Source: Verrucomicrobiia bacterium (GTDB lineage Bacteria > Verrucomicrobiota > Verrucomicrobiia > Opitutales > Cerasicoccaceae). From it: a stretch of DNA of 64,000 bases. The translations under genes and the position numbers were made by a program. Every line of letters starts with the position of its first letter. The stretch's first letter is position 1. The DNA is taken from NCBI GenBank assembly GCA_030432235.1, contig JAUIHT010000013.1, positions 1 through 64,000 of the forward strand, read 5' to 3'. Shown here in pieces: positions 1-51,446 of this stretch. The notes under the pieces are model-generated. The model saw nothing but the letters and a program-made list of their open reading frames with translations. It was not told the origin of the DNA and did no database searches.

Positions 1-1123
1 ATGGAGTCAGTTTCAGGAAGCCTTCGTAGTAACGGCAAAAGTACATCCGCGGCGGGTCCATGCTCTGCCAGGAGTCGATCAGATCCCAGCCCTCCTGCTT
101 TTGGTCGGGGTCGTTGAAGTGAACCCGGGGCTGGGCCAGCAGCAGCACCACATTGTCCGGCAGCTCGCTGTACTCCAGCGGCGGCAGCCGGTACTTCTCA
201 TAGGCGCAGTAAACGATCTTGCCCGGCAGGCTCGAGACCGCGTCGGCCGTCTCCATCACCGCCCAGCCGATCAGGTCCGAGTACTCGCCCTTGGGGCCGC
301 GCTCCGGCGTCAGGTAGGGCTGGCAGTAAGGGTTGTTGCCCACCTCGTAGGCATCGCTTGGCAGCACCAGGAAGTAGTTGCGGCCGGGGTGCTTTGGCGT
401 GGTCAGGTAGTCGCTGGCCTGGTCGATGACCAGGTCCATCACGCCGGGGATCGGAAAGTGGAAGCCCTGCGCCACCAGGTCCGGATGCGTGTCGCCGTAC
501 AGGTCTTCCATGCGTGACAGCTCGAAGGTATGACGCGTCCGCCATGGGTCCACCGTGCCCCCGTAGCCGGCCCGACGGCGCCACTCGTAGCTGCCGTAGG
601 CGAAGCGGTACTCGAAGTATGGCTCCTCCTCGATGTCCAAGTCGGGCGCCACCAGCGTCGGCTCCGAGGGCACCACCTCCCACTGCTCGTCCGGGTAAAA
701 CCACCGGCAGCCCAGCTCCTCCAGGAAGCGGTAGACCCCGTAAAGCGTGCCCGCGCTGACCGTGCTGTAATCGTAGTTCATGTTGAAGCCGCTCTCGTCC
801 ACACCCACGATCGCGATGCCTCCGGTGAAGCTCTCGATACGGAACCCCTCCGCCGCCAGACCGCTCGCGCTAATGCCAAGGTTGTCCGTGTAGACGCTTT
901 GCCCCACCAACACCGCTGGCTTGCCACCGGTGAACGTGCTCAGCGGTACCGTGCTGCTGCTCGAGACGCTCAACACCGGTAGCGTCGTGCCCGTCATCTT
1001 CTCAATGTACTCGTTCAGCTCGCCAACAGCCGTGCTCACGCAGCCCACCGGGCTGCTCGAGATCACGATCACCGCCTCCGCCACGCCGCCGTCCGTTAGC
1101 TCCGTTGGCGCGCCGAAGACGGC
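1..1123. repeat. Tandem duplicate, copy B
   Basis: This stretch matches 4040-5162 at a constant offset of 4039 with no gaps. By eye I count roughly 38 mismatches over about 1120 bases. Most fall at the same codon position of the minus-strand frame, so they are mainly synonymous. The repeat continues beyond the left edge. Confidence 0.95.
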
Positions 1124-1204
1124 AGAGGCACCTCCCATAAGAAGAAATGCCAGTACACGCAGCCTCACTGTTCCCAAGAAGAAATGCTTAATCCCCAAGC
1201 TCAT
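1..1204 (-). CDS. DUF4838-type secreted protein, N-terminal part (runs off left edge)
   Basis: The frame opens at an ATG at 1204 and stays open to the window edge, so only about 400 residues are visible. A basic start and a hydrophobic stretch ending near SAVFG form a signal peptide. The mature part matches residues 17-390 of the upstream gene almost exactly: a GH67/GH20-type N-terminal subdomain, then the motif GCRWFYPDEQW seen in DUF4838 proteins. The start overlaps the upstream stop by 17 bases, so the two are probably co-translated. The signal peptide is not similar to that of the upstream copy; homology begins just after the cleavage site. Substrate is unknown; a glycan-active enzyme in a polysaccharide operon is the inference. 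Confidence 0.8.
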   Translation of the reverse strand, partial: MSLGIKHFFLGTVRLRVLAFLLMGGASAVFGAPTELTDGGVAEAVIVISSSPVGCVSTAVGELNEYIEKMTGTTLPVLSVSSSSTVPLSTFTGGKPAVLVGQSVYTDNLGISASGLAAEGFRIESFTGGIAIVGVDESGFNMNYDYSTVSAGTLYGVYRFLEELGCRWFYPDEQWEVVPSEPTLVAPDLDIEEEPYFEYRFAYGSYEWRRRAGYGGTVDPWRTRHTFELSRMEDLYGDTHPDLVAQGFHFPIPGVMDLVIDQASDYLTTPKHPGRNYFLVLPSDAYEVGNNPYCQPYLTPERGPKGEYSDLIGWAVMETADAVSSLPGKIVYCAYEKYRLPPLEYSELPDNVVLLLAQPRVHFNDPDQKQEGWDLIDSWQSMDPPRMYFCRYYEGFLKLTP

Positions 1205-4200
1205 TGATAACCTTTAAGCGCATGAACACGGGTTGCCCTTCCGACACCGGGATTTTGGAACGAATGGACACTCGTTCAATCTCCCCGTTGATGACCACAG
1301 GGGGCCCGGCCTGTTCAACATAAGCACTCCCGGAAACCCAGTTTCCCTCCGCCAGGTTCGTGCATACCTCAACGTAATAACGAAATCCATTGCAGCTGTA
1401 ATCCACGCCCGGAGTCCCGCTGCCGCCACGAAGCTGCCTATAAGTCAACATGGGATAATGCCCGTCGACTTCAGGGGAAGGCAGACTGCTCGCATTATCG
1501 TGGCTATCCATACCAAAGGCAGTGCGCAGAATCTGCGGGTACACATCATAACCCGATCCACTGCCCGGATCTTCGGAATCGTTACCTCCCGCTCCTGGTA
1601 TTTCGACTCCACCCTCTGTCGAGAATGCATATTCGTAAACATAGACGTAGCCCGGCACCCATAGGGTCAGCGAGGTGGGGCTCAAGGAGGCATGTTCCTT
1701 TGCCGACCATATTATCTGTGACCCTGACGGCTGCTCCTCGGTAATAATAAAAGTCACCAGGTTGCCGTGGTCATCCTCGCTACTGAGTGACTCATTGAGA
1801 AAATCAGTCAAATCCTCGCCACTAATGCTGAATTCAGTTCCTGCTGCCGGCGCGTCACCTACTGCGGGTGTGGTAAAGCTCCCGACCAAACTCAAGTACG
1901 ACGGCAGTGCCGAATAGGCCGAGGCGCTTGGGTCCCACGGGGCATTGTCCCCGGCCAGAGCCAACTCATCCCAATCTTGCCCGAGTTTACTGGCATCTCC
2001 CTGATAGGATGGATCTATGGCATACACCAAGGCCGTATTTTGAGCCTTTCCGCTGTACATGCTAGAATACCGAAATGTTAGTTCCGCGTCTTCAATCGCG
2101 GTACTTCGCATGTAGCCCCTTCCACCATCCGTCAGGTTGAAGCGCACATAGCTCATCCTCGTGGTAGACCCACTCGCAGAGCGTTGTGAGCGCAAGACGC
2201 CCTGTGCTCCGAAATTTCCGCTCATCGATGTGGCATCGACATAGGCATCCGCATCCGGCGCCAAGTACTCCAACTCGTAGGGGTCTACTTCCTTTCGTAC
2301 CGTTAGCTCCAAAGACGCTGGGTCAAAATCCTCGTGCTCTTTGGTGATCCAGGAAACCTGATTACCCGAAGTCGAGGACTCTTCGAATACCACGAAGGTT
2401 ATCAAATCGGCATAGTTCTCGGAACTCTGCAGGGAGGCATTAAGGAAGTCGACCAAGCTCTCACCGCGAATGGTAAACTCGGTGCCCGCCGGCGGAGAGT
2501 TGGCCGAATCGGGAATCATGAAATCCCCAACCAGAGTCAGATCATCAAGATTCGTTTGCTGCCCTTGCAACCAGGTCACGGGGGCATTGTTACCAGTCAG
2601 TGTAAGCTCTCCCCAGTTTTGCCCCAGCAAACCGCTCCCTCCCTGATAATCGTGATTTAAAGCATAGACGAGGATACGGTTTTCACTTCGGCCACTGCTA
2701 ATGCCGCCCATGCGCAGCGTAAACGAGGCATATTTAACGGGGTCGGTGGGATGCTCGCCCCAATTCTCATTAGACAAATCGAACCGGACATAACTGGAAC
2801 GCCTGTAATTACTATTCGTATAGTAACGTACCCACATCCCGCTGGAGTCGCCGTTATTTTGAGAGGCAGCGGAAGAGCCTGAAGTCACATAGGTATCCGC
2901 ATCCGGAGTAAGGTAGGAAAGCGCCTCCTCCTGAAAATGATTCACCTCGGGCTCAAGATACAACTGCCGAATCTCACTAAAGGTTATCTCCCGATCATAG
3001 ATTTTTATCTCATCAATGATACCGTCGAAATATTCGATAATATCAGTGGGACCACTTTCTCCCGCTGCACCGATAAACCGAACCCCATACTCCGAAGGAA
3101 TGGTAAGAGTCGGGTCCAAGGCAATCAGCGTTCCATTAAGGAATATAGCCATCCCGTTTTCATCGCTAAACGTAGCCACAATATGATGCCACTCGTAGGG
3201 CTTGATTTCCTCTGAATTAGCAAACAAGCGACTGCGCTCAGTGGCCCAGGAGCCGCCATCGTGACGATGAATCAACCTCAATACGCCTTCCTCAATCGAA
3301 ATCCCGTGACGGTCCCACGCCTCCGAGCCGATCAAGTATTGTGATAAGTCGAAAGTTACTGCCTCCGGTTTGACCCATAGAGACAATGTATAATCGCTGC
3401 CACTCAAACTGACTATGGGAAATGAAACGATGCTGCTGCTTCCATTAAATCGCAGTGCGTTTCCACTGATCCCGCCAACCCACTCGGCATCCGTAATCGT
3501 GGCATTCACCGAGCGGACAGCGTCCTCCGTGCTCGTCCCCTCCCCTTCATCAAACGAAAAGGTAGAGACCGGGCCCGTGAGCACGCCCGCCGGCTCATTC
3601 TCCATCCGGACCCTAATAGCTCTAATGGCATCGAAGCTTTGGTCGATGTAGTCGACGTGTGATTGGTAGGGGGTAGTGCTGGCGAGTGTCTGTGCTTGTT
3701 GTAGGTAGCCTTCGAGTTCGTCGATGGTGTCGAGGGAGTACAGGTGCAGTTCGCTGGGGGTGTGGTAGAGCTCTTCGAGGCGTTCGAAGAAGGCTTCCAT
3801 GGGGGTGGCGGCGGGCCCGTAAAACTTATCGAAGTAATCTTCCAGCAGCTCGTCGATATCCAGGTCGGGGTTCCATAGCAGCCTGGCGGTGACGTACTCG
3901 TTCAGGCAGAACCACCAGGCGTAGGCGTGGTCGGCGGGCACCGAGCCGTAGTTCATCTCACCGCCGAAGGGCAAGGTGTCGTTCTCGCGGTACTGCTTCA
4001 TGCGCTTGATGTCCTCGGCGATCATCCGCGGGGCGTAGGACGGAGTCAGTTTCAGGAAGCCTTCGTAGTAACGGCAAAAGTACATCCGCGGCGGGTCCAT
4101 ACTCTGCCAGGAGTCGATCAGATCCCAGCCCTCCTGCTTTTGGTCGGGGTCGTTGAAGTGAACCCGGGGCTGGGCCAGCAGCAGCACGACGTTGTCCGGC

Positions 4201-5210
4201 AGCTCGCTGTACTCCAGCGGCGGCAGCCGGTACTTCTCATAGGCGCAGTAAACGATCTTGCCCGGCAGGCTCGAGACCGCGTCGGCCGTCTCCATCACCG
4301 CCCAGCCGATCAGGTCCGAGTACTCGCCCTTCGGGCCGCGTTCTGGAGTCAGGTAGGGCTGACAGTACGGGTTGTTGCCCACCTCGTAGGCATCGCTTGG
4401 CAGCACCAGGAAGTAGTTGCGGCCGGGGTGCTTCGGCGTGGTCAGGTAGTCGCTGGCCTGGTCGATGACCAGGTCCATCACGCCGGGAATCGGGAAGTGG
4501 AAGCCCTGCGCCACCAGGTCCGGGTACGTGTCGCCGTACAGGTCTTCCATGCGCGACAGCTCGAAGGTATGACGCGTCCGCCATGGGTCCACCGTGCCCC
4601 CGTAGCCGGCCCGGCGACGCCACTCGTAGCTGCCGTAGGCGAAGCGATACTCGAAGTATGGCTCCTCCTCGATGTCCAGGTCCGGCGCCACCAGCGTCGG
4701 CTCCGAGGGCACCACCTCCCACTGCTCGTCCGGGTAAAACCAACGGCAGCCCAGCTCCTCCAGGAAGCGGTAGACCCCGTAAAGCGTGCCCGCGCTGGCC
4801 GTGCTATAATCGTAGTTCATGTTGAAGCCGCTCTCGTCCACACCCACGATCGCGATGCCGCCGGTGAAGCTCTCAATGCGGAACCCCTCCGCCGCCAGAC
4901 CGCTCGCGCTAATGCCAAGGTTGTCCGTGTAGACGCTTTGCCCCACCAACACCGCCGGCTTGCCGCCGGTGAACGTGCTGAGCGGTACCGTGCTGCTGCT
5001 CGAGACGCTCAACACCGGCAGCGTCGTGCCCGTCATCTTCTCAACGTACTCGTTCAGCTCGCCAACCGCCGTGCTCACGCAGCCCACCGGGCTGCTCGAG
5101 ATCACGATCACCGCCTCCGCCACGCCGCCGTCCGTCAACTCCGTCGTCGCGCCGAAAACGGGCACTTGAAAAGCAAGAGATAATAAACCTAGAAAATAGA
5201 AACGCTTCAT
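1188..5210 (-). CDS. Large secreted DUF4838 protein with LamG and two CBM96/DNRLRE-like modules
   Basis: This 1340-residue protein starts with a signal peptide (cleavage near residue 20). Residues 20-540 form a DUF4838-like region with a GH67/GH20b-type N-terminal fold. About 545-757 is a LamG (concanavalin-like) domain beginning near FSFDEGEG. Two DNRLRE/CBM96-like modules follow, at about 765-970 and 980-1190, each opening with PDADTYV or PDADAYV and containing SYVRF. The last 130 residues resemble the C-terminal tails of other verrucomicrobial secreted proteins. It lies 30 bases after the lyase-like gene and overlaps the next copy. The first third is GC-rich and the module part is clearly less so, which suggests assembly from two sources. 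DUF4838 proteins are mostly uncharacterised, so the reaction is unknown. Confidence 0.8.
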   Translation of the reverse strand: MKRFYFLGLLSLAFQVPVFGATTELTDGGVAEAVIVISSSPVGCVSTAVGELNEYVEKMTGTTLPVLSVSSSSTVPLSTFTGGKPAVLVGQSVYTDNLGISASGLAAEGFRIESFTGGIAIVGVDESGFNMNYDYSTASAGTLYGVYRFLEELGCRWFYPDEQWEVVPSEPTLVAPDLDIEEEPYFEYRFAYGSYEWRRRAGYGGTVDPWRTRHTFELSRMEDLYGDTYPDLVAQGFHFPIPGVMDLVIDQASDYLTTPKHPGRNYFLVLPSDAYEVGNNPYCQPYLTPERGPKGEYSDLIGWAVMETADAVSSLPGKIVYCAYEKYRLPPLEYSELPDNVVLLLAQPRVHFNDPDQKQEGWDLIDSWQSMDPPRMYFCRYYEGFLKLTPSYAPRMIAEDIKRMKQYRENDTLPFGGEMNYGSVPADHAYAWWFCLNEYVTARLLWNPDLDIDELLEDYFDKFYGPAATPMEAFFERLEELYHTPSELHLYSLDTIDELEGYLQQAQTLASTTPYQSHVDYIDQSFDAIRAIRVRMENEPAGVLTGPVSTFSFDEGEGTSTEDAVRSVNATITDAEWVGGISGNALRFNGSSSIVSFPIVSLSGSDYTLSLWVKPEAVTFDLSQYLIGSEAWDRHGISIEEGVLRLIHRHDGGSWATERSRLFANSEEIKPYEWHHIVATFSDENGMAIFLNGTLIALDPTLTIPSEYGVRFIGAAGESGPTDIIEYFDGIIDEIKIYDREITFSEIRQLYLEPEVNHFQEEALSYLTPDADTYVTSGSSAASQNNGDSSGMWVRYYTNSNYRRSSYVRFDLSNENWGEHPTDPVKYASFTLRMGGISSGRSENRILVYALNHDYQGGSGLLGQNWGELTLTGNNAPVTWLQGQQTNLDDLTLVGDFMIPDSANSPPAGTEFTIRGESLVDFLNASLQSSENYADLITFVVFEESSTSGNQVSWITKEHEDFDPASLELTVRKEVDPYELEYLAPDADAYVDATSMSGNFGAQGVLRSQRSASGSTTRMSYVRFNLTDGGRGYMRSTAIEDAELTFRYSSMYSGKAQNTALVYAIDPSYQGDASKLGQDWDELALAGDNAPWDPSASAYSALPSYLSLVGSFTTPAVGDAPAAGTEFSISGEDLTDFLNESLSSEDDHGNLVTFIITEEQPSGSQIIWSAKEHASLSPTSLTLWVPGYVYVYEYAFSTEGGVEIPGAGGNDSEDPGSGSGYDVYPQILRTAFGMDSHDNASSLPSPEVDGHYPMLTYRQLRGGSGTPGVDYSCNGFRYYVEVCTNLAEGNWVSGSAYVEQAGPPVVINGEIERVSIRSKIPVSEGQPVFMRLKVINELGD
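4040..5162. repeat. Tandem duplicate, copy A
   Basis: Partner of 1-1123. It covers the DUF4838 region of the 1188-5210 gene just after its signal peptide. The other end of the duplication lies outside the window. Confidence 0.95.
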
Positions 5211-5240: not shown

Positions 5241-8200
5241 TTACATACGCGCTGGCAAAAACCAACGCCCACGATCATTCGAATATACCGGAGGAATTCT
5301 CTTATCCGGCGAAAAGTTTAGCTGAGCGCCTGGGGTAGTAATCCGCCACAACCTGCCAGCCTGGCCTGGACCAACGGGTACCGTCAGCGAAATGGGGTTA
5401 GGCCCGTCATACGTGTCCATGTAGATGCTTTTGTCCCAAACAAGCTCTCCATCAGGCCCCCATATTGACAGACGTCGCACTTCACTTCCTTTTGCCAAAG
5501 GCAGCTCCATCGTGAACTCGTCAATGCCTTCGGGCACCCGAAACCAGACCTGATCGTGATAGCCGAGCAGATTAATTCCTTCGCCTGGCTCAGTAACGAT
5601 AACTTCCGGAACCTCGCTTCTCTGGCATACAGGCACTGCGAGACTACGCGAATTGGTTAGCTGTAAGCAGTACTCGCCTACTTCCGAATTCTTCGGCAGG
5701 GATAATTCCAGTGGCTTGTCCGTAGCCCATTCACCTTGAAGAATAATATCTCCGCTCGGGCCAACCAATGAATAAGGAACAGCCCTCGCCTTACCTTTGC
5801 CACCCAGCGTTTCCTTGAGAACCAGTGGAATGTCGCCGGAACCGTCATGAAGGAAAATCACCCTCGGGTTTTGCTCCAACAACATTAAACGATTGGCCAC
5901 AGGCACAACATTCTTCTCGCTACGATAAAGCGCATCCAGGGCCAGGGGGAAATACTGAAGCATCCAGCCAGTCGTCTGCGGTGTTTCATGGTCGCTTCGA
6001 TGGATGTAATACCCCTCCAAATAACCGGGCTGCTCGCCAGTCCACACTGATGCTTTGGTCCATTCAAGTATGTCGGCCAGACGCCCCAGGTAATAGTCAT
6101 CTCCCGTCAGTCGCCAAGCATACGCATTGGGCTCTATCATAGGGTCAATGTATTGCACATAATCGATGCCGCCTGTAAAATCGGCGTAGGTCAGGTAGTA
6201 TTGCTCCCAGTCATCGCTTCCGGTAAAACGCTGGTATTCACGAAACGCCGTCACGTAAGGGGTTCCCAGAGTCCCCTCTTCAAGCAGTTCTCTTTCAAAC
6301 CCACGCGCCAGCTCATGCGCGGCAACCAGAAACCAGGGATCAAAAGTGGCCTCATAGGTTTCAACGTAGGATTTGAGCATGGTAAGCGGAAAACGCATAT
6401 CGAGCGACCCTTCACCAAAGGGACCGCGTATAGCAATGGGACCGCGCAGCTTACCCGCATCTTCGACTTTAGTGAGAGCCACCCACTCTTGAAACAGGTC
6501 CCACGCCCGCCAATAGTCATTCAAATACCAGGCATAGAGAAGATAATCCACCTTGCTTTCATAGTCGCGTGTGCGGGTGGCATTCTCGTCCTCTCCAATA
6601 GTCGAAGCCCATGGGAGCGTTGAGCGATGAATGACGCCGCGCTTGATGTCACCCGTACCGTAGTGTTTCCAATTCGCATCGATATTCTGGCGCGTTGCAA
6701 TGTCAGCTTCATGCAAAAGCTTGGAATCGCCACTACGCGCGTAGGGAATCCACGAATAGGGCCAGCCGTGGTGCCTCTTTCGGTAAGCACGGTATAGCGC
6801 CGGCTCGCGTCTTTTCAGGCCTAGATCCCAACCGGGAATATCGCCGTAAATCCACATCCCGTAGATGCCAAGGTGCTCCCTCCACTGCGCCGGCGCCATC
6901 GCTATTGACTCATAAGCGCGCTCTTCATCAGGGAAATTCTCAGTGTCCTTTTGGCGTATCTCATAAAATACCCCACTGGACGCGACCCATTCCGGATCCA
7001 CGACGGCACGTAGCGTTTCCTCATTCAATCCTTTGAGTACACGAACAGCATTATCCACATCCTTGTCGCCACTCTGAGCAAGCAACCACATTTCCTCCGT
7101 ACGTGAAATGCCCTGTGCGTTAATGGAATCCGGCTCACCCTTCCGCCAATATTTATTCCACGGCCTTCCGGCACGCATCCGCGAGTGGACAGGATCGACG
7201 GTAACTTCATAAGGCAGATGAAAATTCAGCTTCTCCCCCTCATGGGCAAACCTTGCCTGGATTAAATTCAAGGTCCACTCCGAGCGTGTCAAATAGCCAT
7301 CCTGATACTGCCCATGTCTGGATGCTGACGGAAACGCGGCTTCCCCAGCCTCTGGTTCCAGAACGCCCTCAAAGGTGTAGCCAGCCGGGCGGTTGTGCCG
7401 TGGCCAGTTATGAAACCAAAGGCTGCCCTTTGTGAACTCCAACTCGGAGGGATAATTCTGCCAAAAGTCGCGTATCCCCAAAAACAAATTAATGTCCTGC
7501 TTCACTTTCACAGCCGCGACGCCGGGAGCCCGGGCACCCGGGTACTCACCAATAACCCCGTCCTTGTTAAAATCAAAGTGCTCGTAATCCCACTGCAGCA
7601 GATAATCTCCCTTCTCTCCGATAAACTCACTGTCATAAGATGGCAAAACCCCAAGCGGCTCATAGCCTTCCGACATGGCTAACTCCCACCCCATATTCGC
7701 AATTTTGTCTTTGTTTCCATCACCGGTAAAAATCCAGCTATAGAAAATCTTAACCAGAGGGCTATCCTCATAGAGGAAGTAACGAACGATATATTTGCAG
7801 TAGGCATCCTCCGTGGAATCCTCCGTGTACCAGCCGGATTTTTTCAGGACCGTCTTGAGCGGCCCGGTTTCCTCTATCTCCCACTCACCTCCATTCGACG
7901 AATGATAAACTGCTTTCCCCGAGGGTTGGACAAAGGCCCCGTCCATGCCATGCTTATTCACGATTTCGACATAGTCTGCATTGTCCGATGAACGGTACCA
8001 CAGGCCATTCTGCAGCTTGAGCTTCCCGGCATCAACTAACGGATTATTCCCCTCTACTGAGGCCTCCATGGGAGGTAACTCTTCACAATTAACTTTTGGC
8101 CCATACTCCAGCTCCAGGCGACGAGCCTCGCCGCCAAGGTCTACCATAAAAGAGATATGAGCCCACTTCACCGATTCCCACTTGGCCCATCTGCCTACGG

Positions 8201-8858
8201 TTTTAACTTGAATCGGGATTTCAGGACGCCCCGGACGATCCGTCGCAACCAGGCGCAGGTGCGAGGTATCATAAATAAGGCCACGGGGAAAAGGTACTCC
8301 CGCAGTGACCGGCAAGTCATCAAGAGTTACGGCCTCTTCATTCAGTATGGTCAAAGCAATAGAGCCATTTATCGGCTTCTCTAAAGCAGAAGTTTCAACA
8401 CGAAACCCATGTTTGGCCTGAGCGAGTTCCCGACCATTTTTGTCCTCCAAAAGGATGCGCAGTTCACCCTGACCCGCGGGCAGCAGCCCTTCGGGGATGT
8501 CCGGATAGGCAATCATTGCATATGCCGGAGGCTTGAATGAAAATTCTGACAGTGGCTCCGTGCCGTCAAGCTCCCCGATTTGCATCTTCAGAATAACGTC
8601 CCCCAGCTCACGCGCCAGCGCCGATTCGTTCAACTGGATGACTACATCCAAATGCCCATCCTGCACCCAATAACGGCTTCGGGAAAGCAGTGTGCGCATG
8701 GGAGGAAACTCGTCGTTGGGCTTAGGTTCACGGACGGTTCTTATCGACGCATCATAAAACGGCAGCAGTTCGTTTATCGCCTCAACCTTTACTTCAGCAG
8801 CACTGACAGGCAGGCTGATGGCCATTATAAAATATATAAATTTCTTAAAAATATTCAC
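5241..8858 (-). CDS. Secreted exo-rhamnogalacturonan lyase-like protein (PL26/PcRGLX/YetA-type)
   Basis: The 1205-residue protein opens at a GTG with a short signal peptide (ISLPVSAAE). After about 130 residues comes the motif GVPFPRG followed by a segment around KWAHISFMVDLGG, typical of the RIFT-barrel N-terminal domain of PcRGLX-like exo-rhamnogalacturonan lyases. The middle (about 600-1000) is rich in W, Y and G and alpha-helical, as expected for an (alpha/alpha) toroid. The C-terminal 200 residues look like beta-sandwich. Length fits large members of the group. It sits 46 bases after a small secreted gene and 30 before a DUF4838 gene. Lyase activity on a rhamnose-uronate glycan is inferred; family assignment is by motif memory, not by search. 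Confidence 0.6.
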   Translation of the reverse strand: MNIFKKFIYFIMAISLPVSAAEVKVEAINELLPFYDASIRTVREPKPNDEFPPMRTLLSRSRYWVQDGHLDVVIQLNESALARELGDVILKMQIGELDGTEPLSEFSFKPPAYAMIAYPDIPEGLLPAGQGELRILLEDKNGRELAQAKHGFRVETSALEKPINGSIALTILNEEAVTLDDLPVTAGVPFPRGLIYDTSHLRLVATDRPGRPEIPIQVKTVGRWAKWESVKWAHISFMVDLGGEARRLELEYGPKVNCEELPPMEASVEGNNPLVDAGKLKLQNGLWYRSSDNADYVEIVNKHGMDGAFVQPSGKAVYHSSNGGEWEIEETGPLKTVLKKSGWYTEDSTEDAYCKYIVRYFLYEDSPLVKIFYSWIFTGDGNKDKIANMGWELAMSEGYEPLGVLPSYDSEFIGEKGDYLLQWDYEHFDFNKDGVIGEYPGARAPGVAAVKVKQDINLFLGIRDFWQNYPSELEFTKGSLWFHNWPRHNRPAGYTFEGVLEPEAGEAAFPSASRHGQYQDGYLTRSEWTLNLIQARFAHEGEKLNFHLPYEVTVDPVHSRMRAGRPWNKYWRKGEPDSINAQGISRTEEMWLLAQSGDKDVDNAVRVLKGLNEETLRAVVDPEWVASSGVFYEIRQKDTENFPDEERAYESIAMAPAQWREHLGIYGMWIYGDIPGWDLGLKRREPALYRAYRKRHHGWPYSWIPYARSGDSKLLHEADIATRQNIDANWKHYGTGDIKRGVIHRSTLPWASTIGEDENATRTRDYESKVDYLLYAWYLNDYWRAWDLFQEWVALTKVEDAGKLRGPIAIRGPFGEGSLDMRFPLTMLKSYVETYEATFDPWFLVAAHELARGFERELLEEGTLGTPYVTAFREYQRFTGSDDWEQYYLTYADFTGGIDYVQYIDPMIEPNAYAWRLTGDDYYLGRLADILEWTKASVWTGEQPGYLEGYYIHRSDHETPQTTGWMLQYFPLALDALYRSEKNVVPVANRLMLLEQNPRVIFLHDGSGDIPLVLKETLGGKGKARAVPYSLVGPSGDIILQGEWATDKPLELSLPKNSEVGEYCLQLTNSRSLAVPVCQRSEVPEVIVTEPGEGINLLGYHDQVWFRVPEGIDEFTMELPLAKGSEVRRLSIWGPDGELVWDKSIYMDTYDGPNPISLTVPVGPGQAGRLWRITTPGAQLNFSPDKRIPPVYSNDRGRWFLPARM

Positions 8859-27797: not shown

Positions 27798-29564
27798 ATG
27801 TCCACCATGCGTAAAGAATATTTGATTATCAAACCACTAACCCGTGTCATCGCAACGCTTGCCATTGCAGCATTCATCACAGCTGTATCCGCACAGGATA
27901 CCGTACCGAATGAAACCGAAGCCGAACGCGACGCGCGTATGCAGTGGTGGCGCGACGCCAAGTACGGCATGTTCATCCACTGGGGCGCCTCAACCTACCT
28001 GGGCGGAGAATGGAAAGGTAAAAATTACGGCGACAGTCACGGCCTGATCCGCAACGCAAAGCTTTCTCCCGAGGAATACGCCGCCGCCGTCCAGCCCTTC
28101 AATCCTATTGATTTCGACGCCGAGCAATGGGTACTTGACGCTCAGCGCTTCGGCTTCAAGTACATCGTCTTCATCGCCAAGCATCATGATGGTTTCGCGA
28201 TGTGGGATTCTGAAGCGTCCGATTTCAACATCATCGACGCCACTGACTTTGATCGTGACATCCTGGCCGAACTGTCAGCCGCCTGTCAAAAGTACGACAT
28301 GAAACTTGGTATTTACTACTCCCATGCACGTGACTGGTATCATCCCGGTGGGGCTATGGGGTTGCACAACATGCCCACCTGGCATCCGTCGCAGGAGGGT
28401 GAGTTCACCGATTACATCCACGAGGTTGCCGTCCCGCAGGTGCGCGAGCTGTTGACCAACTACGGTCCGATTGCCGAGTTCTGGTGGGACACGCCTGACA
28501 ACATGACACCGGAGCTGGCCGAACCGTTCACCGAACTGCTTCAGCTGCAACCCGGCATTGTCACCAACAGCCGGTTGCTCAGCCGCGACGGCACCGGAGG
28601 CGACTTCGACACGCCGGAGCGGTATATCCCAACCAAACAAGAGCATGACCTCGATTTTGAGGTCTGTATGACAATTGGACGTACCTGGATGTGGAGCAAG
28701 AAGGACGAACGAGAAAAAACAGGCCAGGACCTGCTCTTTAACTTGCTGGAGATTGCCAGTAAGGGCGGCAATTACCTGCTCAACATTGGCCCCACCCCAC
28801 AAGGAACCTTCGCCGACTGGCAGATCGAGCGGCTCGAATACGCCGGCAACTGGCTGGCGGAATACGGCGAGGCGATCTATGGCACGAGCGAGGGCCCTTT
28901 CCGTTATTGGGAAAACGGTTACGCCACCACCAAAGACAACGCACTCTATCTGCTTATAACCGAATGGCCGACCGACGGCAGGCTATATGTCCCGATCGGC
29001 AACGCACCCGAAACCGCACACACGCTGGGGGGGACTTCTCAATCGTTCACGTTTGAATCGACTGACAAGGGGTTGTTCATCGACGTGCCGGATCAGCCGC
29101 TGGATGACCGCGCGTCAGTGATTGTGCTCGACATGCCCGAGCCTGCGGTGCCTATCCGCCAGGGCCGGCTGCCTGACGAAGACGGAGCGTATGAACTAAC
29201 AGCAGTGGACGGAGAGCGCTACGGCCTGCGTCTACGGTTGATCGGCGATGTGATCCCCAGTTGGCCGACCGGTTTGTACAGTGTGACTTGGCCGATTTAT
29301 ATCGAATATCCAGGCACCTACAAGGTGCAGGCGACCTATGCCTGCGACCCAGACAAGGCCGGGGGCACGCTTGATTTGACATTCAACGAGCAAAAGCTCA
29401 CCGCGATCACGCAGCCGACCGCGTCGGTCACCGACTTCCAGACTTTTGATCTGGGCACGGTCACATTCGACCGCGAAATGCCCGTCGAAGTAGTGCTCAA
29501 GCAGCTCAAGAGAAAAGCCCCCGATGCGGTCAGTTTCAAGTCTTTGACGCTCACACGCGAGTAG
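27798..29564 (+). CDS. Alpha-L-fucosidase, GH29 (copy 1)
   Basis: About 588 residues. A signal peptide ends near AVSAQD, and the ATG at 27798 is chosen for it. GH29 hallmarks are KYGMFIHWG, FIAKHHDGFAMWDS and YYSHARDWYHP. The segment GPIAEFWWDTP carries the expected nucleophile Asp. The last 120 residues form a beta-rich module (YACDPDKAGGTLDL). The enzyme removes terminal alpha-L-fucose from glycans in the periplasm or outside. It is a paralog of the gene at 39260-40996; the cluster with sulfatases points to a fucose-containing sulfated polysaccharide. Confidence 0.92.
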   Translation: MSTMRKEYLIIKPLTRVIATLAIAAFITAVSAQDTVPNETEAERDARMQWWRDAKYGMFIHWGASTYLGGEWKGKNYGDSHGLIRNAKLSPEEYAAAVQPFNPIDFDAEQWVLDAQRFGFKYIVFIAKHHDGFAMWDSEASDFNIIDATDFDRDILAELSAACQKYDMKLGIYYSHARDWYHPGGAMGLHNMPTWHPSQEGEFTDYIHEVAVPQVRELLTNYGPIAEFWWDTPDNMTPELAEPFTELLQLQPGIVTNSRLLSRDGTGGDFDTPERYIPTKQEHDLDFEVCMTIGRTWMWSKKDEREKTGQDLLFNLLEIASKGGNYLLNIGPTPQGTFADWQIERLEYAGNWLAEYGEAIYGTSEGPFRYWENGYATTKDNALYLLITEWPTDGRLYVPIGNAPETAHTLGGTSQSFTFESTDKGLFIDVPDQPLDDRASVIVLDMPEPAVPIRQGRLPDEDGAYELTAVDGERYGLRLRLIGDVIPSWPTGLYSVTWPIYIEYPGTYKVQATYACDPDKAGGTLDLTFNEQKLTAITQPTASVTDFQTFDLGTVTFDREMPVEVVLKQLKRKAPDAVSFKSLTLTRE

Positions 29565-32526: not shown

Positions 32527-33369
32527 ATGCAAGCAACGAATCTCCATTCCCACTCTAAATCCATCACCACACCCTATCTTAAAACCCTCACCTTTGCCGT
32601 GCTTCTGCCTTTCTGCACAAACGCCGATACGATCCTGTTGCACGATGATTTCGAAGATGGCAGCCGTTTTAATCAGGATTTGCCTGATTCTGCGGAGTGG
32701 TTTGCTTCCTTCAATAATCTCCGAATGGCAAAAACCGCATCTAGGGAGTACTCTCTGGAGAACGCTCCGGTAGGTAGTGTCGCACGGCACGGTGTCGCCT
32801 ATTTCGCCCCCTCGGATGCTCCAGTCTCACTGGCCGACGGGGAAACGCTCACCGTCTCATTTAACGTAACCCCGACCTCGCGCACTCCTGAAAACGGACT
32901 ACATGTGTTGCGTGTCGGAGTGCTCCATTCCGGTAGCGAACAGCAAAAGATTGATAATGGTAATGCAGATCCCAAGGTAAGCGGCTACGGTTTTTTTATC
33001 AATCCCGCAGACCAGCGCATTCGCATTTACGGTCGCACCGACGACGCCGGCCCACTCTTTTCCTCACTTGGCAGTGGCAATGGTTGGGCAGGCGGAAAGA
33101 CCGGCGGATTTCTTTTCGGCAACACCCCCTCCTATAGCGTCTCGATGACTCAAGACAAAACCTACAAAATCACTGTCGCAATCAAACGTCTTAACAATGA
33201 CGATCTGGACATTACCTATACTATCACTGAGGGAGATGAAACGACGGAGGTCAACTTTGTGGAAAGCGATTATCTTGTTTATGATTTCGATACCATTGCC
33301 TTCGCCTGGGGCGATGCTTTCGGTGACGGCCTCGTCGACAACGTAACCGTCACTCACACAACTACCTGA
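32527..33369 (+). CDS. Secreted single-domain protein of a new four-copy family
   Basis: 280 residues. A signal peptide (LTFAVLLPFCTNADT) is followed by one 240-residue domain that begins DDFEDGSRFNQDLPDSAEWF and ends FAWGDAFGDGLVDNVTVTH. The same domain occurs twice at the end of the 34827 protein and once, with a PEP-CTERM tail, in the 50565-51446 protein. This copy lacks any sorting tail, so it is probably soluble in the periplasm or secreted. The beta-rich pattern suggests a jelly-roll, possibly a glycan-binding module. I do not know a named family for it. Confidence 0.75.
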   Translation: MQATNLHSHSKSITTPYLKTLTFAVLLPFCTNADTILLHDDFEDGSRFNQDLPDSAEWFASFNNLRMAKTASREYSLENAPVGSVARHGVAYFAPSDAPVSLADGETLTVSFNVTPTSRTPENGLHVLRVGVLHSGSEQQKIDNGNADPKVSGYGFFINPADQRIRIYGRTDDAGPLFSSLGSGNGWAGGKTGGFLFGNTPSYSVSMTQDKTYKITVAIKRLNNDDLDITYTITEGDETTEVNFVESDYLVYDFDTIAFAWGDAFGDGLVDNVTVTHTTT

Positions 33370-34826: not shown

Positions 34827-37800
34827 ATGCCTCCCATTTCAACAACCTATATGTACGAGCAGCTTTTGTCCTGCTTTCAACGGCGTCTCGGACTACTCCG
34901 CTTTCGTCCCATCTGGTTGCTGACGTTAACGATCATATCCGTGCTATTCACCGGTACGACCCGCGCTGTCGACCTGGAACAGCTTGGCGGTGTCGTCATT
35001 CACAAGCACAACCAAAGCGAGCGCTACATAGCCGACCCTGCGATCACGGTCATGCCCGACGGCAGCTATATCGCCAGTCACAACTGGCATGGTGATAACC
35101 CGCCGTCTCCACGCACGACACGGGTCTACCGTTCCACCGATGGCGGTCAGACATGGACGTTCCGCTCGGAAGTCGACAAGTCCAAGCAGATTCTCTACAG
35201 CTACAATGGCGATCTCTATATGCTGGGAGGTTTTAACCCCAAAATCCGCCGCTCTACCGATATGGGGTTGACGTGGTCGAGCCCGGAATCCCTTCCCAGC
35301 GGCGGTTCTGACTCAGCTGTCAGCGTACCGCATATCTACAATGGACGTATATACTTTGCCAACGGTATGCGTCTGATTTCGGCTCCGCTCGTGCCGAACC
35401 TGCTCGAGGCGGACTGGACCGCGACCAACGAGCTGGCCGCAACGCCTTCGGGGTCGGGATCGTGGCTCGGTGGTGATTTCAAACGGTGGCACGAGAGCCA
35501 GGTCGTGGCCTCCCCCCAGACGGGAGTCGTCATGATGCCCAACATTGAAGACCTGCCTTATTCTGCATTGATAGAGTGTAACGAAGCCGCGACGACGCTT
35601 TCCTTTGATACTGACGACTTTGTCAATCTGCCGGGCGCCGACAAGAAGTTCTGTGTCTTCTACGACGAGGTATCCGAGCGCTTCTGGGCACTGACCAATC
35701 CAGTGCTAACGGAGCACGGCGGCTACGGCACGTCGCGAAACGAGGACCTCATTCGCAACGCCGGGGCGCTATATTCCTCTGCCGACTTGCGGAACTGGGA
35801 GCTAGAAAAGATGCTGCTCTACACGGCGGATATTGATCACGAAGGCTTCCACTACTATTGCGCGGCGGTCGATGGCGATGACCTCGTCTTTGTCGCACGC
35901 ACGGCCTTGACTGATGGCAGTTATACGCCACCGCGAGCCCATGACGGCAATATTCTCTCCTTTCACAGGCTGGAGAACTTCCGTAATCCAGAGCGAAAAT
36001 ATGCTCTGGTCACCTGTACCGATAGCGACAAAATCCGCCGGGTAGAAACGACCCTCAACGCAAACCTCGCCCCTAACGGCCAGTTCACTACCTTCTCCAT
36101 GGACCGGCCTTTCGGCATCACACAAGCGACGAACGGGGACGTTTACGTCGGAGAAAACAAGGCGGGAGGACGCATCTTACGCTTCACACCTGAGGGTAGC
36201 TATGTGGAGACGGTGGCGACCGAAGGGGTGGACTTCGATGGTATGCCAGTGGCGATGACCTCCTATGGCGATGACGTCTTTTTTACCTCATGGGGGACCT
36301 CCGACCGCGTGCACCGACTGGACACGCTTACCAGCGACGTCAGCTTCTTCGTCACCGGTAGCTTCGGGCTTCAAGAACCCAAGGGCATCGTCGCCGGCTC
36401 GGACGGCACGATTTATGTGGCCGACAGCGGCAATGGCCGGATCAGTAAATTCGACGCTGTAAGCCGAGACTTCCTCGGCAACCTGCTCACCGGTCGAGAC
36501 GACGTCAACGCCCTCGGCATTCACGAGTCGAGCAACCGTATGTTTTTTTCCTGGAATGGAGGAAGCCACACGAACCTGGGTCGCGCATTACTTGATACCG
36601 GTGCGGTACAGACTTATTATAACATCAGCGACCTTGGCACCGTCAGCGGATTTATTCGATACAACGGCGAGTACTACTTCACCGACTATGAGGCCGATAC
36701 GCTCTACCGGCTTGAGATCAGTAACAGCAAGACGACCAACATCAACGTGACTTTCCACGGCGTCTCACACATCCAACCACTGGCGCCGATCGCTCCGACA
36801 ATCGTCTCCTCACCGTCTTCTCAGGTGATCAACGAGGGCTCTATGGTCGTTCTCGAAGTCGAGGTGGATGGCTTTCCTGAGCCTTACCTGCAATGGTATT
36901 ACGAGGGGAATCCTATTTCTGGAGAAAATGATACGTCATTAAGCCTGGAGAACTTTACGGCGAGCATGGCAGGGGATTACACGGTAACGGCCACTAATAG
37001 TGGAGGCAGTTCGAGTAGCAGCCCAGCCACACTACTTGTGTCTCAGTCGATATCGTTCTTCCCACAACCTGTGGTTCGCTTTTCCACTGAAGGGATTCCG
37101 CTCTTTGCTGAGTCAGACTCTGGCTTGCCTGTGGCCCTAGAAGTGACCTCAGGGCCCGGCACAGTACAGTGGACGACTCTATTGCCCAGCGGCCTCGGTG
37201 ATATTGACCTGCGTGCCACACAAAGTGGAGATGATCAGTATGCACCGGCTGCACCCGTTGATCGTACCGTTACCGTTGAGTCGAGCTTCGACTACTGGCG
37301 TTACGGCCAATTCTCGGCAGCTGAACTTGAAAACCTTCAAGTCAGCGGGCCTGCTGCCACTCCCGATGATGGCTTATACAATTTGATGAAATATGCTCTG
37401 GGGCTGGGTCGTTATGAGTCTTATTCGCACCTATTGCCGAGTGCGGGTACGCAGGGAAATGCATACCTTTACGAATACTGGCGTGATCCCACCGTCAAGG
37501 ATGTAGACTGGCTGGTCGAAGTATCTTCCAGCCTTTCCGGTGGTTGGCACCGGCCCCAAAACTTACAGGAAATGTTTGTGGAAAACGTTAGCGGAAGAGA
37601 ACGTTGGCGAGTACTCGTGCCTATGGGTTTTGGGCCACAGTGTTTCTTTAGGTTAAACCTTTTAAGGTTAGACGAAGATAACAATCTAATCCTTCAACAA
37701 GATAATTTTGAAGATAATAACCGCTCTAACCAGTATCTGCCCGATTCCGCGCAGTGGTTTCAGTCCTTCAATAACCTCGATATTGTCGAGACATCACCGG

Positions 37801-39161
37801 ATGCCTACGCACTGGAGAACGCCCCGTCCAGTGCCGTTATTCGGCACGGTGTCAGCTACTTCGCCCCCACGGATGCCCCTATCTCACTTGAGGTTGGCGA
37901 AACCCTTACGGCTTCTTTCACTGTTACTCCGACCTCGCGAACACCCGACGAAGGGCTGACTGTGTTGCGTGTCGGCTTGCTTCATTCCGGCAATTCCCGT
38001 CAAACGACCGATAACACGAGCCCGAATCTCACAATGAGTGGCTACGGGTTCTTTGTTAATCCGGCAAATCAGACCGTGCGAACCTACGGTCGCTCCGAAG
38101 ACTCGGGCCCCCTCTTTTCCTCGCTTGGCAGTGGCAACGGCTGGGTTGGTGGATCAACCGGAGGGCTCCTGTCCGACATCACTGCTGAGGACGCCTTCGC
38201 ACTGGCCCAAGGAGTGCCCTACGTTATCAGTGTAGAGATCAAGCGCCTTGCCAACGATGACGTGAACATTGCCTACACGACCACTGATGGCATAAACACC
38301 GCAAGTACCAGCTTCGTGGAAAGCAGCTATTTGGTTTATGATTTCGACACCTTCGCCTTTGCCTGGGGTGACGCTTTCGGAGACGGCCTCGTTGACGACG
38401 TAATCGTCACACTCGCTTCTCCCGTGATCCTGGCCGACAATTTTGAAGACAGTATCCGCTCAAACCAGAATTTGCCTGAATCCGCGCAGTGGCTTCAGTC
38501 ATTCAACAATCTCGATGTAGTCGAGACATCACCGGATGCCTACGCACTGGAAAACGCCCCGTCCAGTGCCGTTATTCGGCACGGCGTTGCCTACTTCGCC
38601 CCGACGGACGCTCCGGTTTCGTTGGCCGCTGGCGAAAAGATTGCGGCTTCTCTCAGCGTAACCCCAACCTCGCGCACACCGGATGACGGGCTGACTGTCC
38701 TGCGAGTCGGTTTACTTAATTCCGGTAATTCCAGACAAACGACCGATAACATGAACCCAAATCTGGTAATGAGCGGCTACGGGTTCTTTATTAATCCTGC
38801 GGCCCAGCGCGTGCGTACCTACGGTCGATCCGAAGACTCCGGCCCTGTCTTTTCCTCTCTGGGCAGTGGTAACGGCTGGGTTGGAGGGTCAATCGGCGGG
38901 CTCCTTTCCGACATCACGCCAACTGGCAGCTTCGCCATGGTTCAAAGCACGACTTACGACATCACTGTTGAGATTGAACGCCTAGCCAATGGTGATTTGA
39001 ACATTACCTACACAAGTACCGATGGAACCAATACTGCAAGTGCCAGCTTTGTGGAAAGTGGCTATGTTGTTTATGATTTCGACACCTTTGCCTTTGCTTG
39101 GGGTGACGCTTTCGGCGACGGCCTCATCGATGATGTTATCGTCACACACGAAGCGCCCTGA
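34827..39161 (+). CDS. Multidomain secreted sialidase-fold protein with two C-terminal copies of the new domain
   Basis: About 1444 residues from the ATG at 34827 (34851 is also possible). A long signal peptide ends near TTRAVD. Residues 40-390 form a BNR sialidase propeller (STDGGQTW, STDMGLTW); 392-650 an NHL/SMP-30-like propeller (GTIYVADSGNGRISKF); 654-737 an Ig-like domain (PEPYLQWYYEGNPIS); 819-944 a tail domain common in verrucomicrobial exported proteins, ending CFFRLNL. Normally such proteins stop there, but two tandem copies of the 240-residue domain follow (955-1197 and 1199-1444). It looks like a fusion of a complete enzyme with two binding modules. Reaction unknown. Confidence 0.75.
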   Translation: MPPISTTYMYEQLLSCFQRRLGLLRFRPIWLLTLTIISVLFTGTTRAVDLEQLGGVVIHKHNQSERYIADPAITVMPDGSYIASHNWHGDNPPSPRTTRVYRSTDGGQTWTFRSEVDKSKQILYSYNGDLYMLGGFNPKIRRSTDMGLTWSSPESLPSGGSDSAVSVPHIYNGRIYFANGMRLISAPLVPNLLEADWTATNELAATPSGSGSWLGGDFKRWHESQVVASPQTGVVMMPNIEDLPYSALIECNEAATTLSFDTDDFVNLPGADKKFCVFYDEVSERFWALTNPVLTEHGGYGTSRNEDLIRNAGALYSSADLRNWELEKMLLYTADIDHEGFHYYCAAVDGDDLVFVARTALTDGSYTPPRAHDGNILSFHRLENFRNPERKYALVTCTDSDKIRRVETTLNANLAPNGQFTTFSMDRPFGITQATNGDVYVGENKAGGRILRFTPEGSYVETVATEGVDFDGMPVAMTSYGDDVFFTSWGTSDRVHRLDTLTSDVSFFVTGSFGLQEPKGIVAGSDGTIYVADSGNGRISKFDAVSRDFLGNLLTGRDDVNALGIHESSNRMFFSWNGGSHTNLGRALLDTGAVQTYYNISDLGTVSGFIRYNGEYYFTDYEADTLYRLEISNSKTTNINVTFHGVSHIQPLAPIAPTIVSSPSSQVINEGSMVVLEVEVDGFPEPYLQWYYEGNPISGENDTSLSLENFTASMAGDYTVTATNSGGSSSSSPATLLVSQSISFFPQPVVRFSTEGIPLFAESDSGLPVALEVTSGPGTVQWTTLLPSGLGDIDLRATQSGDDQYAPAAPVDRTVTVESSFDYWRYGQFSAAELENLQVSGPAATPDDGLYNLMKYALGLGRYESYSHLLPSAGTQGNAYLYEYWRDPTVKDVDWLVEVSSSLSGGWHRPQNLQEMFVENVSGRERWRVLVPMGFGPQCFFRLNLLRLDEDNNLILQQDNFEDNNRSNQYLPDSAQWFQSFNNLDIVETSPDAYALENAPSSAVIRHGVSYFAPTDAPISLEVGETLTASFTVTPTSRTPDEGLTVLRVGLLHSGNSRQTTDNTSPNLTMSGYGFFVNPANQTVRTYGRSEDSGPLFSSLGSGNGWVGGSTGGLLSDITAEDAFALAQGVPYVISVEIKRLANDDVNIAYTTTDGINTASTSFVESSYLVYDFDTFAFAWGDAFGDGLVDDVIVTLASPVILADNFEDSIRSNQNLPESAQWLQSFNNLDVVETSPDAYALENAPSSAVIRHGVAYFAPTDAPVSLAAGEKIAASLSVTPTSRTPDDGLTVLRVGLLNSGNSRQTTDNMNPNLVMSGYGFFINPAAQRVRTYGRSEDSGPVFSSLGSGNGWVGGSIGGLLSDITPTGSFAMVQSTTYDITVEIERLANGDLNITYTSTDGTNTASASFVESGYVVYDFDTFAFAWGDAFGDGLIDDVIVTHEAP
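37700..38421 (+). repeat. Intragenic tandem repeat, copy 1
   Basis: First of two in-frame copies at the end of the 34827 gene, period 735 bases (245 codons). Long identical stretches, for example around 37790-37850 versus 38525-38585, show recent duplication or conversion. Confidence 0.88.
38435..39156 (+). repeat. Intragenic tandem repeat, copy 2
   Basis: Second copy, offset 735 from the first, ending five bases before the stop. Confidence 0.88.
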
Positions 39162-39259: not shown

Positions 39260-40996
39260 TTATTTTTCAATAGTCAATTCAGGCACCAACCGCACGGCGT
39301 GAAAACGGGCATCGCCAGCATTCATAATTTTCGGCAGACTGAGCTCGACCTCGACAGTCTCCGCATTATCAAAATCAATCGTTCCGATAGTAAAGGATTC
39401 AAAAGACTCTGCCGGCTGAAAGACCGCATTAAAAATACACTCACCTATCTTCACCTGATAAGTGTCGCCCGCAAGCTTTGGGCTGCAGCTATATACCGCT
39501 TCTACCCGGTAAGTACCCGGTTCTTCGACATACATCGGCCAGTTCATTCGATAGGTGCTGTTGGTCCAACGAACGATCGCGTTGTCCTCAATATGGATCC
39601 ACGCACCGCGACGCTCACCAATACGTGGCGTTAAATCGTAAACACCCTCATCATCTGGCAAGTAGCCCTGGCGGATGGCAATTGCGGGTTCACTCAACTC
39701 TACTGCCAGTACCGACACCATCGGCTCCAAAGGCTCGCGCGGTACATCAATCAGTAACCCATCAGGTGTGCTTTCAAAGGACAATGACTGTCCAGATTTA
39801 CCCAGCGAAGACACCTCCAAGGGTACATTGCCTATCGGCACGTGTAATGAGCCATCGTTCGGCCAGTCATATACATGCAGGTAAAGCGTATTGCCTTTCA
39901 CCGTTGCGCTACCAGCAGGCCAATGACGAAACGGTCCCTGACGTGTCCCATAGACGGACTGGCCATATTGATCGAGCCACGTACCAATCACGAGTAGACG
40001 CTCAGTATTTTCAGGAATAATATTTCCTTTCTCGTCAGGTGTAACATTCAACAAAAGGTTGCCGCCCCGGCCCACTGAATTGAGTAGATTACGCAATAAC
40101 TGCTGCTCTGACTTCCACTCCCGATCAGTCTCACTGTATACCCAATACTTACCGATAGTCATACACGCCTCGATGTCACGATCCGGCGGATCACGGAAAG
40201 AGGGAATGTATCGCTCGGGCGTATCGAAGTCGCCACTACCGCTGATGAGCCGATCATTGGCGATGATGCCCGGTTGAAGAGACATCAGCGCATTGAGACG
40301 TTCTGCCTGCTCGAGTGTGATATCCTCAGGCATGTCCCACCACATCACCGCGATCGGGCCATAGTTCGTAAGCAGTTCACGCACTTGCGGCTCGGCTACT
40401 GTTTTGAGATATTCATTGAAATCGCCGTTCTGTGCCTCGTCCCAACGCTTGTCACTACCCGCGATCGCACCGCCAGGGTGATACCAGTCCCGCGAGTGTG
40501 AATAATACACCCCCAGTTTCATATCATATTTGGCGCAGGCCTCGGCTAGCTCCTTGAGAATGTCACGATCATAGTCAGTGTGGTCAATGATGTCGAACTC
40601 GGACGCCTGGGTATCCCATAGCGCGAAGCCGTCATGGTGCTTGGCAATGAAGATGATGTATTTCATACCCGCCTCCTTTGCGAGCAACACCCATTCTTCG
40701 GGATCGTAGTCTACCGGGTTGAAGTGGCTGAGTGCCTCGGCGTAATCAGAAATGGGCATCTTAACACCGCGTAAAATATTGTAACCATCACCACGTGGTC
40801 GACCTTCCCATTTGCCAAGCAACTCAGCGGATGCGCCCCAATGAATAAACATACCGTACTTAGCATCACGCCACCACTCCATACGAGCGTCGCGCTCAGT
40901 CTCGGTTTCGTCAGGGAACGTGGGCAAGGCAGCTAGTACAGGCAGAAAAACCACCAGGAATACAAGAGCAATCAGAGATTGCTTCGCGTATTTCAT
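39260..40996 (-). CDS. Alpha-L-fucosidase, GH29 (copy 2)
   Basis: About 578 residues. The ATG at 40996 gives a signal peptide (LIALVFLVVFLPVLAAL); an open stretch upstream to 41248 lacks signal-peptide character. It shares ERDARMEWWRDAKYGMFIHW with copy 1 (Gln for Glu there), then FIAKHHDGFALWDT and YYSHSRDWYHPGG. The nucleophile Asp is in GPIAVMWWDMP. A C-terminal beta module (YSCSPKLAGDTYQV) also matches copy 1. The enzyme releases alpha-L-fucose. It is divergent from the SDR gene with three GntR-type palindromes between, so both are probably induced together. Confidence 0.92.
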   Translation of the reverse strand: MKYAKQSLIALVFLVVFLPVLAALPTFPDETETERDARMEWWRDAKYGMFIHWGASAELLGKWEGRPRGDGYNILRGVKMPISDYAEALSHFNPVDYDPEEWVLLAKEAGMKYIIFIAKHHDGFALWDTQASEFDIIDHTDYDRDILKELAEACAKYDMKLGVYYSHSRDWYHPGGAIAGSDKRWDEAQNGDFNEYLKTVAEPQVRELLTNYGPIAVMWWDMPEDITLEQAERLNALMSLQPGIIANDRLISGSGDFDTPERYIPSFRDPPDRDIEACMTIGKYWVYSETDREWKSEQQLLRNLLNSVGRGGNLLLNVTPDEKGNIIPENTERLLVIGTWLDQYGQSVYGTRQGPFRHWPAGSATVKGNTLYLHVYDWPNDGSLHVPIGNVPLEVSSLGKSGQSLSFESTPDGLLIDVPREPLEPMVSVLAVELSEPAIAIRQGYLPDDEGVYDLTPRIGERRGAWIHIEDNAIVRWTNSTYRMNWPMYVEEPGTYRVEAVYSCSPKLAGDTYQVKIGECIFNAVFQPAESFESFTIGTIDFDNAETVEVELSLPKIMNAGDARFHAVRLVPELTIEK

Positions 40997-50564: not shown

Positions 50565-51446
50565 TCAGGCACCTTTTTTATAGCGTCTGATACCGAGCCC
50601 GATAAGGGCAGTGAGGCCGACGATGAATGCGAAGCCGGAGGGCTCGGGTACCACGCTGACATTAACGTTGTCGACGAGGCCGTCACCGAAAGCGTTGCCC
50701 CAGGCAAAGGCGATCGTATCGAAGTCAGACACCAGATAAGTGGTTTCCTCAAAGCTGGTGGTTACCGTATTTACACCATCAGTGATTGAGTAGGAGATGT
50801 TCAGATTGCCACTTCCAAGAAGTTGTACCGCTACAGTGATATCGTAAGCCGTATTTTGAACCATAGCGAAAGTGTCCTCTGGGGTAATAGTGGAAAGAAG
50901 CCCACCGGTCGTACCGCCAACCCAGCCATTACCGCTGCTCAAGGAGGAGAAGATGGGGCCGGCGTCTTCAGTGCGCCCGTAGGTGGAAACTTTTTGGTTC
51001 GCAGGGTTAACAAAAAAACCGTAGCCACTCATCACAATATTTGGGTTCCCGTCTGATGTTAGTTGGGAACTGCCGGAATGAAGCAGGCCGATACGCAATA
51101 TCCTGTCTGCGTCACTGGGGGTTATAGAGCTTGGGGTGATGTTGAGCGTAGCTGTAATGGTTTCTCCGGCGGACAGAGAGATGGGCGAATTCGTGGGGGC
51201 GTAATAAGCAACTCCGTGACGAATCGTGGCGCTCGTTGGTCCATTCTCAAGTGCGTATACCCCGGGAGAGGTCTCCACCATGCTTAGGTTATTGAAGGAC
51301 TGAAACCACTGTGCGGAATCAGGCAGGTCCTGGATTTCGCGGCTGCCGTTGCTAAAGTCCTGATCCAGGATCACTGTGGCATTCGCGCAAAGGGGCAGTA
51401 TTACAGTCAGGGCGAGGGTCTTCATGGATGTTCGTACGATATTCAT
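50565..51446 (-). CDS. PEP-CTERM protein with one copy of the new domain
   Basis: About 293 residues from the ATG at 51446 (51425 also possible). Signal peptide (LALTVILPLCANAT), then the 240-residue domain, starting QDFSNGSREIQDLPDSAQWF and ending FAWGNAFGDGLVDNVNVSV, then PEP-CTERM tail VPEPSGF, helix and RRYKKGA. It is the anchored version of the family at 32527 and in the 34827 protein. Both a GntR-type and a TGTTA-type palindrome lie upstream, the only gene here with both. Confidence 0.82.
   Translation of the reverse strand: MNIVRTSMKTLALTVILPLCANATVILDQDFSNGSREIQDLPDSAQWFQSFNNLSMVETSPGVYALENGPTSATIRHGVAYYAPTNSPISLSAGETITATLNITPSSITPSDADRILRIGLLHSGSSQLTSDGNPNIVMSGYGFFVNPANQKVSTYGRTEDAGPIFSSLSSGNGWVGGTTGGLLSTITPEDTFAMVQNTAYDITVAVQLLGSGNLNISYSITDGVNTVTTSFEETTYLVSDFDTIAFAWGNAFGDGLVDNVNVSVVPEPSGFAFIVGLTALIGLGIRRYKKGA

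Follow-up and report, generated by a model that had tools for sequence, protein, structure and literature searches.

Adjacent DUF4838 paralogues with a core probably homogenised by gene conversion in a polysaccharide-utilisation-type locus of a Verrucomicrobiia bacterium

Domain-limited gene conversion between bacterial paralogues has been described for RF1 and RF2 in Bacteroidia and Chloroflexi, where, according to PMC4530459, conversion acts within one functional domain while the other domains diverge. The pair of genes reported here would be a similar case. However, the RF1/RF2 paralogues date to the common ancestor of bacteria and their conversion was recognised from trees, whereas the present genes are adjacent, differ by a dS of 0.14 in their shared core and carry a compositional block. 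A hypothesis of GC-biased conversion in bacteria, as set out in PMC4450053, expects GC enrichment where recombination is frequent; it relates the GC of genes to recombination across many genomes, whereas the present locus offers one tract, for which the cause of the high GC is a matter of inference. As for the protein family, a Polaribacter DUF4838 protein is labelled GH163 in a table of PMC9870897, and the GH67 alpha-glucuronidases offer a further comparison, through a likeness to their N-terminal domain at the level of profiles. Among the titles and abstract openings returned for gene conversion with polysaccharide utilization, with catalytic domain/carbohydrate-binding module or with Verrucomicrobia, we found no like case. 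A homogenised paralogue core is the product of an ordinary evolutionary process of a known type; the unusual part of this locus is the GC-rich block that lies in the copied tract.

The window, that is, the whole stretch of 64,000 nucleotides that was analysed (G000:C15:1-64000), begins at the end of contig C15, and all features of the locus described below lie on its reverse strand. Gene 1 (1188..5210), identified from its open reading frame and from Pfam and NCBIfam matches, encodes a secreted protein of 1340 aa. Its domain order is signal peptide, GH67N-like domain, DUF4838 (PF16126; 3798..4733, residues 160-471), LamG_3 (2970..3443, residues 590-747), two CBM96/DNRLRE domains (1689..2918) and a C-terminal region. 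The N-terminal part of gene 2 (1..1204) is truncated by the end of C15 and has 17 bases (1188..1204) in common with the end of gene 1. Upstream of gene 1, Pfam identified a gene for a PcRGLX-like (rhamnogalacturonan-lyase-like) protein (5241..8858).

The initial annotation had described a gap-free repeat of about 97% identity, and the direct alignment of window 1-1123 with 4040-5162 agreed with it: 39/1123 positions differed, with zero gaps (96.5% identity), and a self-BLAST of the window returned a single match of 1120 bp for the repeat (96.7%, E=0). The differences had been called mostly synonymous, which was also borne out, since over the comparable codons (n=374) 34 synonymous and 5 non-synonymous differences were counted. 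The synonymous and non-synonymous rates that the annotation had proposed to compute were dS 0.141 and dN 0.0059 (ratio 0.042). The non-synonymous share of the core changes was 5/39, against 0.764 expected (p=7.5e-17), and the visible cores were identical at 369/374 amino acids. Just beyond the repeat the signal peptides are dissimilar, as had been noticed, with identity at 4/16 aligned residues. The homology edge placed at the signal-peptide boundary is real; the other end of the repeat, at position 1, is the cut-off of the contig and no true edge, and it is because of this cut-off that the repeat resembles half a gene. When the 39 core differences were polarised by the orthologue in G004, a genome of another genus in the same family, 13 matched gene 1, 15 matched gene 2 and 11 matched neither, a polarisation that is rough because G004 is distant. 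Change since homogenisation has been about equal in both copies and mostly synonymous.

The annotation had advised extending the assembly to the left; a search of the whole assembly found the probable remainder of gene 2. C6:1-123 matches window 3612-3734 base for base, entering the reading frame at gene-1 codon 493, and on C6 the similarity to gene 1 is lost abruptly after gene-1 codon 533. The tip of C6 (G000:C6:1-795, locus L032) holds an open frame of 264 aa with a LamG_3 domain, followed by a stop. Gene 2 thus probably continues from C15 onto the tip of C6, and if the two are colinear, 305 bp of it would be missing between the contigs. The equivalent segment is present once in the assembly, in gene 1, as would be expected if the assembler had merged two near-identical stretches; the unassembled copy would then be nearly identical to its counterpart in gene 1. 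Joined in this way, the full gene 2 would encode about 765 aa, without the C-terminus of gene 1 or its two CBM96 domains, which are absent from the C6 continuation. The core common to both genes would measure ~1.55 kb (residues 17-533; dS 0.14, dN 0.006), with its C6 part attached through the proposed join. In gene 1 this tract occupies 3612..5162 (codons 17-533) and falls into three pieces: 4040-5162, which pairs with window 1-1123 (the visible gene 2 copy); 3735-4039, whose counterpart is unassembled; and 3612-3734, which pairs with C6:1-123. It spans the complete unit of GH67N-like domain, DUF4838 and helical part. The last 41 shared codons contain 0/123 differences, against 39/1122 in the front part (Fisher p=0.027), a contrast that faintly hints at a second, later homogenisation event.

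The surroundings fit such a join. In G004 an operon has the same order, namely a LacI regulator, a CBM96 protein, two proteins without a Pfam match, a PcRGLX-like protein and one DUF4838 gene. On C6, genes for a LacI regulator, a sulfatase, a xylose-isomerase-like protein and an FAD-oxidoreductase lie beyond the end of gene 2, and the orthologue of this LacI gene is found 14 kb downstream in G004, which supports joining C15 to C6. Moreover, the nearest relative in the genome of the LamG on C6 is that of gene 1 (55%; next 32%), which fits a whole-gene paralogue.

The distances seen in the LamG tails and in the core are in strong conflict. The LamG domains of the two genes are identical at 83/158 residues, and their identities to the G004 orthologue are 59.5% for gene 1 and 55.7% for gene 2; in the core, gene 1 and the G004 orthologue share 64.7%. 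Between gene 1 and gene 2 the synonymous difference (pS) is 0.128 in the core versus 0.768, that is, saturated, in LamG. For the same core codons, dS between gene 1 and G004 is 1.62, which shows that synonymous changes do accumulate in the core, and a recent duplication cannot yield both a near-identical core and a saturated LamG. The gene 2 tail aligns colinearly with that of gene 1 from the linker onward. In two of three LamG tree builds, gene 1 and G004 stood together, apart from gene 2 (87/90 and 88/89); the third (6 rows) did not resolve the order of gene 1, G004 and gene 2. Within the 36 kb of G004 that were covered, the orthologue has no second copy beside it; either an early duplication was followed by loss in G004, or the genes duplicated at roughly the time when the two genera split. 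These comparisons suggest that the paralogues arose at about the time of that split or before it, and that homogenisation of the core came much later. Conversion between paralogues is recognised by a tract much more alike than its flanks, and the values here are 4/16 in the signal peptides, 98.7% in the core and 52.5% in LamG, the 3' side depending on the proposed C15-C6 join. The initial title of a half-gene duplication was therefore misleading, since the LamG tails have diverged: the duplication was probably old and of the whole gene, and the "half" is the homogenised tract as truncated by the contig end. That a half-gene looks freshly duplicated although the genes are old is a caution against dating duplications from one domain.

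We consider it probable, from comparison of the sequences, that the locus, of polysaccharide-utilisation type, holds old paralogues whose core was homogenised by gene conversion. An old duplication would have given two adjacent same-strand paralogues for secreted, probably polysaccharide-acting proteins. Their core (residues 17-533) would later have been homogenised by homologous recombination between the copies, presumably as gene conversion, while divergence went on in the signal peptides, the LamG domains and the C-terminal parts, and purifying selection would have retained both copies ever since. The outcome would be two proteins with one core activity in common and different accessory domains, LamG, two CBM96 domains and a C-terminal region in gene 1 and LamG alone in gene 2. 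The core is near-identical, the flanks are diverged, the edges are sharp and the core is under purifying selection. Of the selection or gene conversion offered in the initial annotation, conversion together with purifying selection is the best supported reading, given the core at 98.7% against LamG at 52.5% and a dN/dS of 0.042.

Three other histories were weighed against conversion between old paralogues. A recent partial duplication, in which the gene 1 core was copied onto a pre-existing different gene with its own signal peptide and LamG tail, requires no long-standing paralogy, and it agrees with the abruptness of both tract edges, the strong divergence of the flanks and the lack of a second copy beside the G004 orthologue. 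Nevertheless, the colinear tail of gene 2 and its LamG, closest to that of gene 1 (55%, next 32%), indicate that the recipient was already paralogue-like, so that this history, which we think unlikely, differs little from conversion. An artefact of assembly or a strain mixture, with a single gene and a misjoined variant at the contig end, had also to be considered, as C15 and C6 both end inside the repeat. This worry is largely answered, although the C15-C6 join is itself a reconstruction: the 5' end and the 3' end each occur in two different versions, every one of them in frame, which means at least two copies, and the gene order of G004 joins the same neighbourhood. An artefact is accordingly very improbable; the assembler may even have merged more than two copies. 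A recent whole-gene tandem duplication, suggested by same-strand tandem genes with overlapping ends, in which one copy diverged fast in its LamG tail and signal peptide under positive selection or relaxed constraint, is scarcely credible, being contradicted by the pS of 0.768 in LamG versus 0.128 in the core, which selection at the protein level cannot explain.

To see how common such pairs are, DUF4838 was searched in 132 genomes and found in 62, of which 21 had at least two matches. The pair survey covered these 21 genomes, with 78 domain rows (the gene 2 row being added by hand) and 137 within-genome pairs, 113 of them with a BLAST match; excluded from it were the 41/62 single-match genomes, three rows below the cut-off and two rows that were second stretches of one frame. 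Identity of at least 90% was reached by 7 pairs, 1 in the present genome (G000) and 6 in G006, which belongs to the same family. The best pairs of ten other genomes, mostly near neighbours, stood at about 57-74%, and the remainder were lower or unmatched. In G006, a DUF4838 core of 2053 bp is 100% identical at four contig ends (L094 7092-9144; L095 1-2053; L096 1-2053 and 11032-13084), with two different N-flanks, two different C-flanks and no rise in GC3. The DUF4838 of G006 and that of gene 1 share only about 21% identity, so the case in G006 is an independent one. As few as two genes may lie behind the four ends, and the pattern may also stem from a recent whole duplication in which the ends were altered. 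The two genomes suggest that in this bacterial family a uniform DUF4838 catalytic-like core can go together with varying signal peptides and binding domains. Several genomes of the order, namely G025, G058, G096, G043, G022 and G116 (L100, L103, L108, L111, L115 and L117), also have neighbouring DUF4838 paralogues, with about 50-75% identity.

The GC-rich block covers 3720..5168 of gene 1 (codons 15-497) in a two-change-point fit. Through codon 497 GC3 is about 0.87, dropping to 0.58 thereafter; the change point at codons 493-502 gained 68.9 in lnL, whereas none of 300 permutations gained more than 8.5, and the composition shift was the largest among the 34 ORFs of the window (66.3; next 14.3). 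Gene 2 likewise has the rise at its signal-peptide end, and the G004 orthologue is almost flat (0.73 / 0.68). Codons 498-533 (window 3612-3719) lie within the shared tract but are not G-rich, with 0/14 fourfold sites ending in G, so the block and the tract end apart; from these codons, the shared tract may be a mosaic of two events. The ribosomal genes of G000 reach a GC3 of 0.80-0.85 with C-ending codons, whereas the block is G-ending, and native translational selection was rejected as its sole cause on this ground.

One account, added to conversion between the paralogues, is that one copy acquired the block by import from a GC-richer relative and the other copy then received it from the first, and to this we give an even chance. 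It agrees with the sharp change point, with the G-ending codon use unlike the C-ending GC-rich genes of G000, with the separate ends of block and tract, with polarised recent core changes that run 15 GC>AT to 8 AT>GC, and with the absence of a GC rise in G006. On the other hand, a search of 384 genomes of the class and 387 of the phylum (overlapping samples) turned up no donor closer than G004, and by our reading the third-base use is also near the pattern of the neighbours once G and C stand in place of A and T. No relative of the core was present among the plasmid records searched, and scans of genome contigs for close relatives gave a sole match, apparently G004's own record. Alternatively, the block could be the direct footprint, within single genes, of GC-biased conversion between bacterial paralogues. 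On this view GC3 would have risen to 0.87 in the exchanged cores, with the unexchanged ends left near 0.58 and the single-copy orthologue flat, but the absence of a rise in G006, the shared codons 498-533 that are not G-rich and the excess of GC>AT among the polarised changes all argue against it, and we regard it as rather unlikely. An abrupt composition block in a converted tract would be a small natural experiment for telling import from GC-biased conversion in bacteria.

As to function, the gene 1 core passes the PF16126 gathering cut-off (61.3 bits vs 26.6) and is a weak member of the family, other genomes scoring up to 326 bits. A profile of 28 DUF4838 proteins matched the GH67 alpha-glucuronidase 1k9d (E=1.3e-13), its best stretch being the N-terminal domain, and the next structures matched were GH115, GH20 and GH84. 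Pfam and domain searches of gene 1 gave no match to the GH67 catalytic domain; gene 1 alone scored 13 bits with Glyco_hydro_20b, below the cut-off of 26.1; and PDB searches with single sequences gave chance-level matches only. AlphaFold2 on the core with a two-row alignment was unusable (mean pLDDT 37.6). Six residues are invariant in 28/28 relatives (R189, H214, P230, D273, Y324 and W368 in gene-1 numbering). One relative aligned weakly with a GH20 enzyme (E=0.14), and in that alignment the D273-type position coincides with the GH20 "DE", which we take to be the catalytic pair of that protein; D273 as its possible counterpart is a lead only. The core, which would combine a GH67N-like domain, DUF4838 and a helical tail, is proposed as a predicted glycan-cleaving unit paired with different binding tails; to our knowledge, no activity has been reported for the DUF4838 subgroup of gene 1.

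Elsewhere in the window, a gene at 61254-63998 for a protein with Ig-like domains (He_PIG, Big_7) stands out from most of the window by its GC3 of 0.82 and its C-ending codons. An adjacent direct repeat (37701-38412 / 38436-39147; about 81% over 714 bp) sits at the end of the frame of a 1486-aa Ig/NHL protein, with related copies at 32641-33353 and, inverted, at 50657-51333. In addition, 28158-28264 and 40557-40663, which lie 12 kb apart, are inverted copies of one another (83% identity over about 104 bp).
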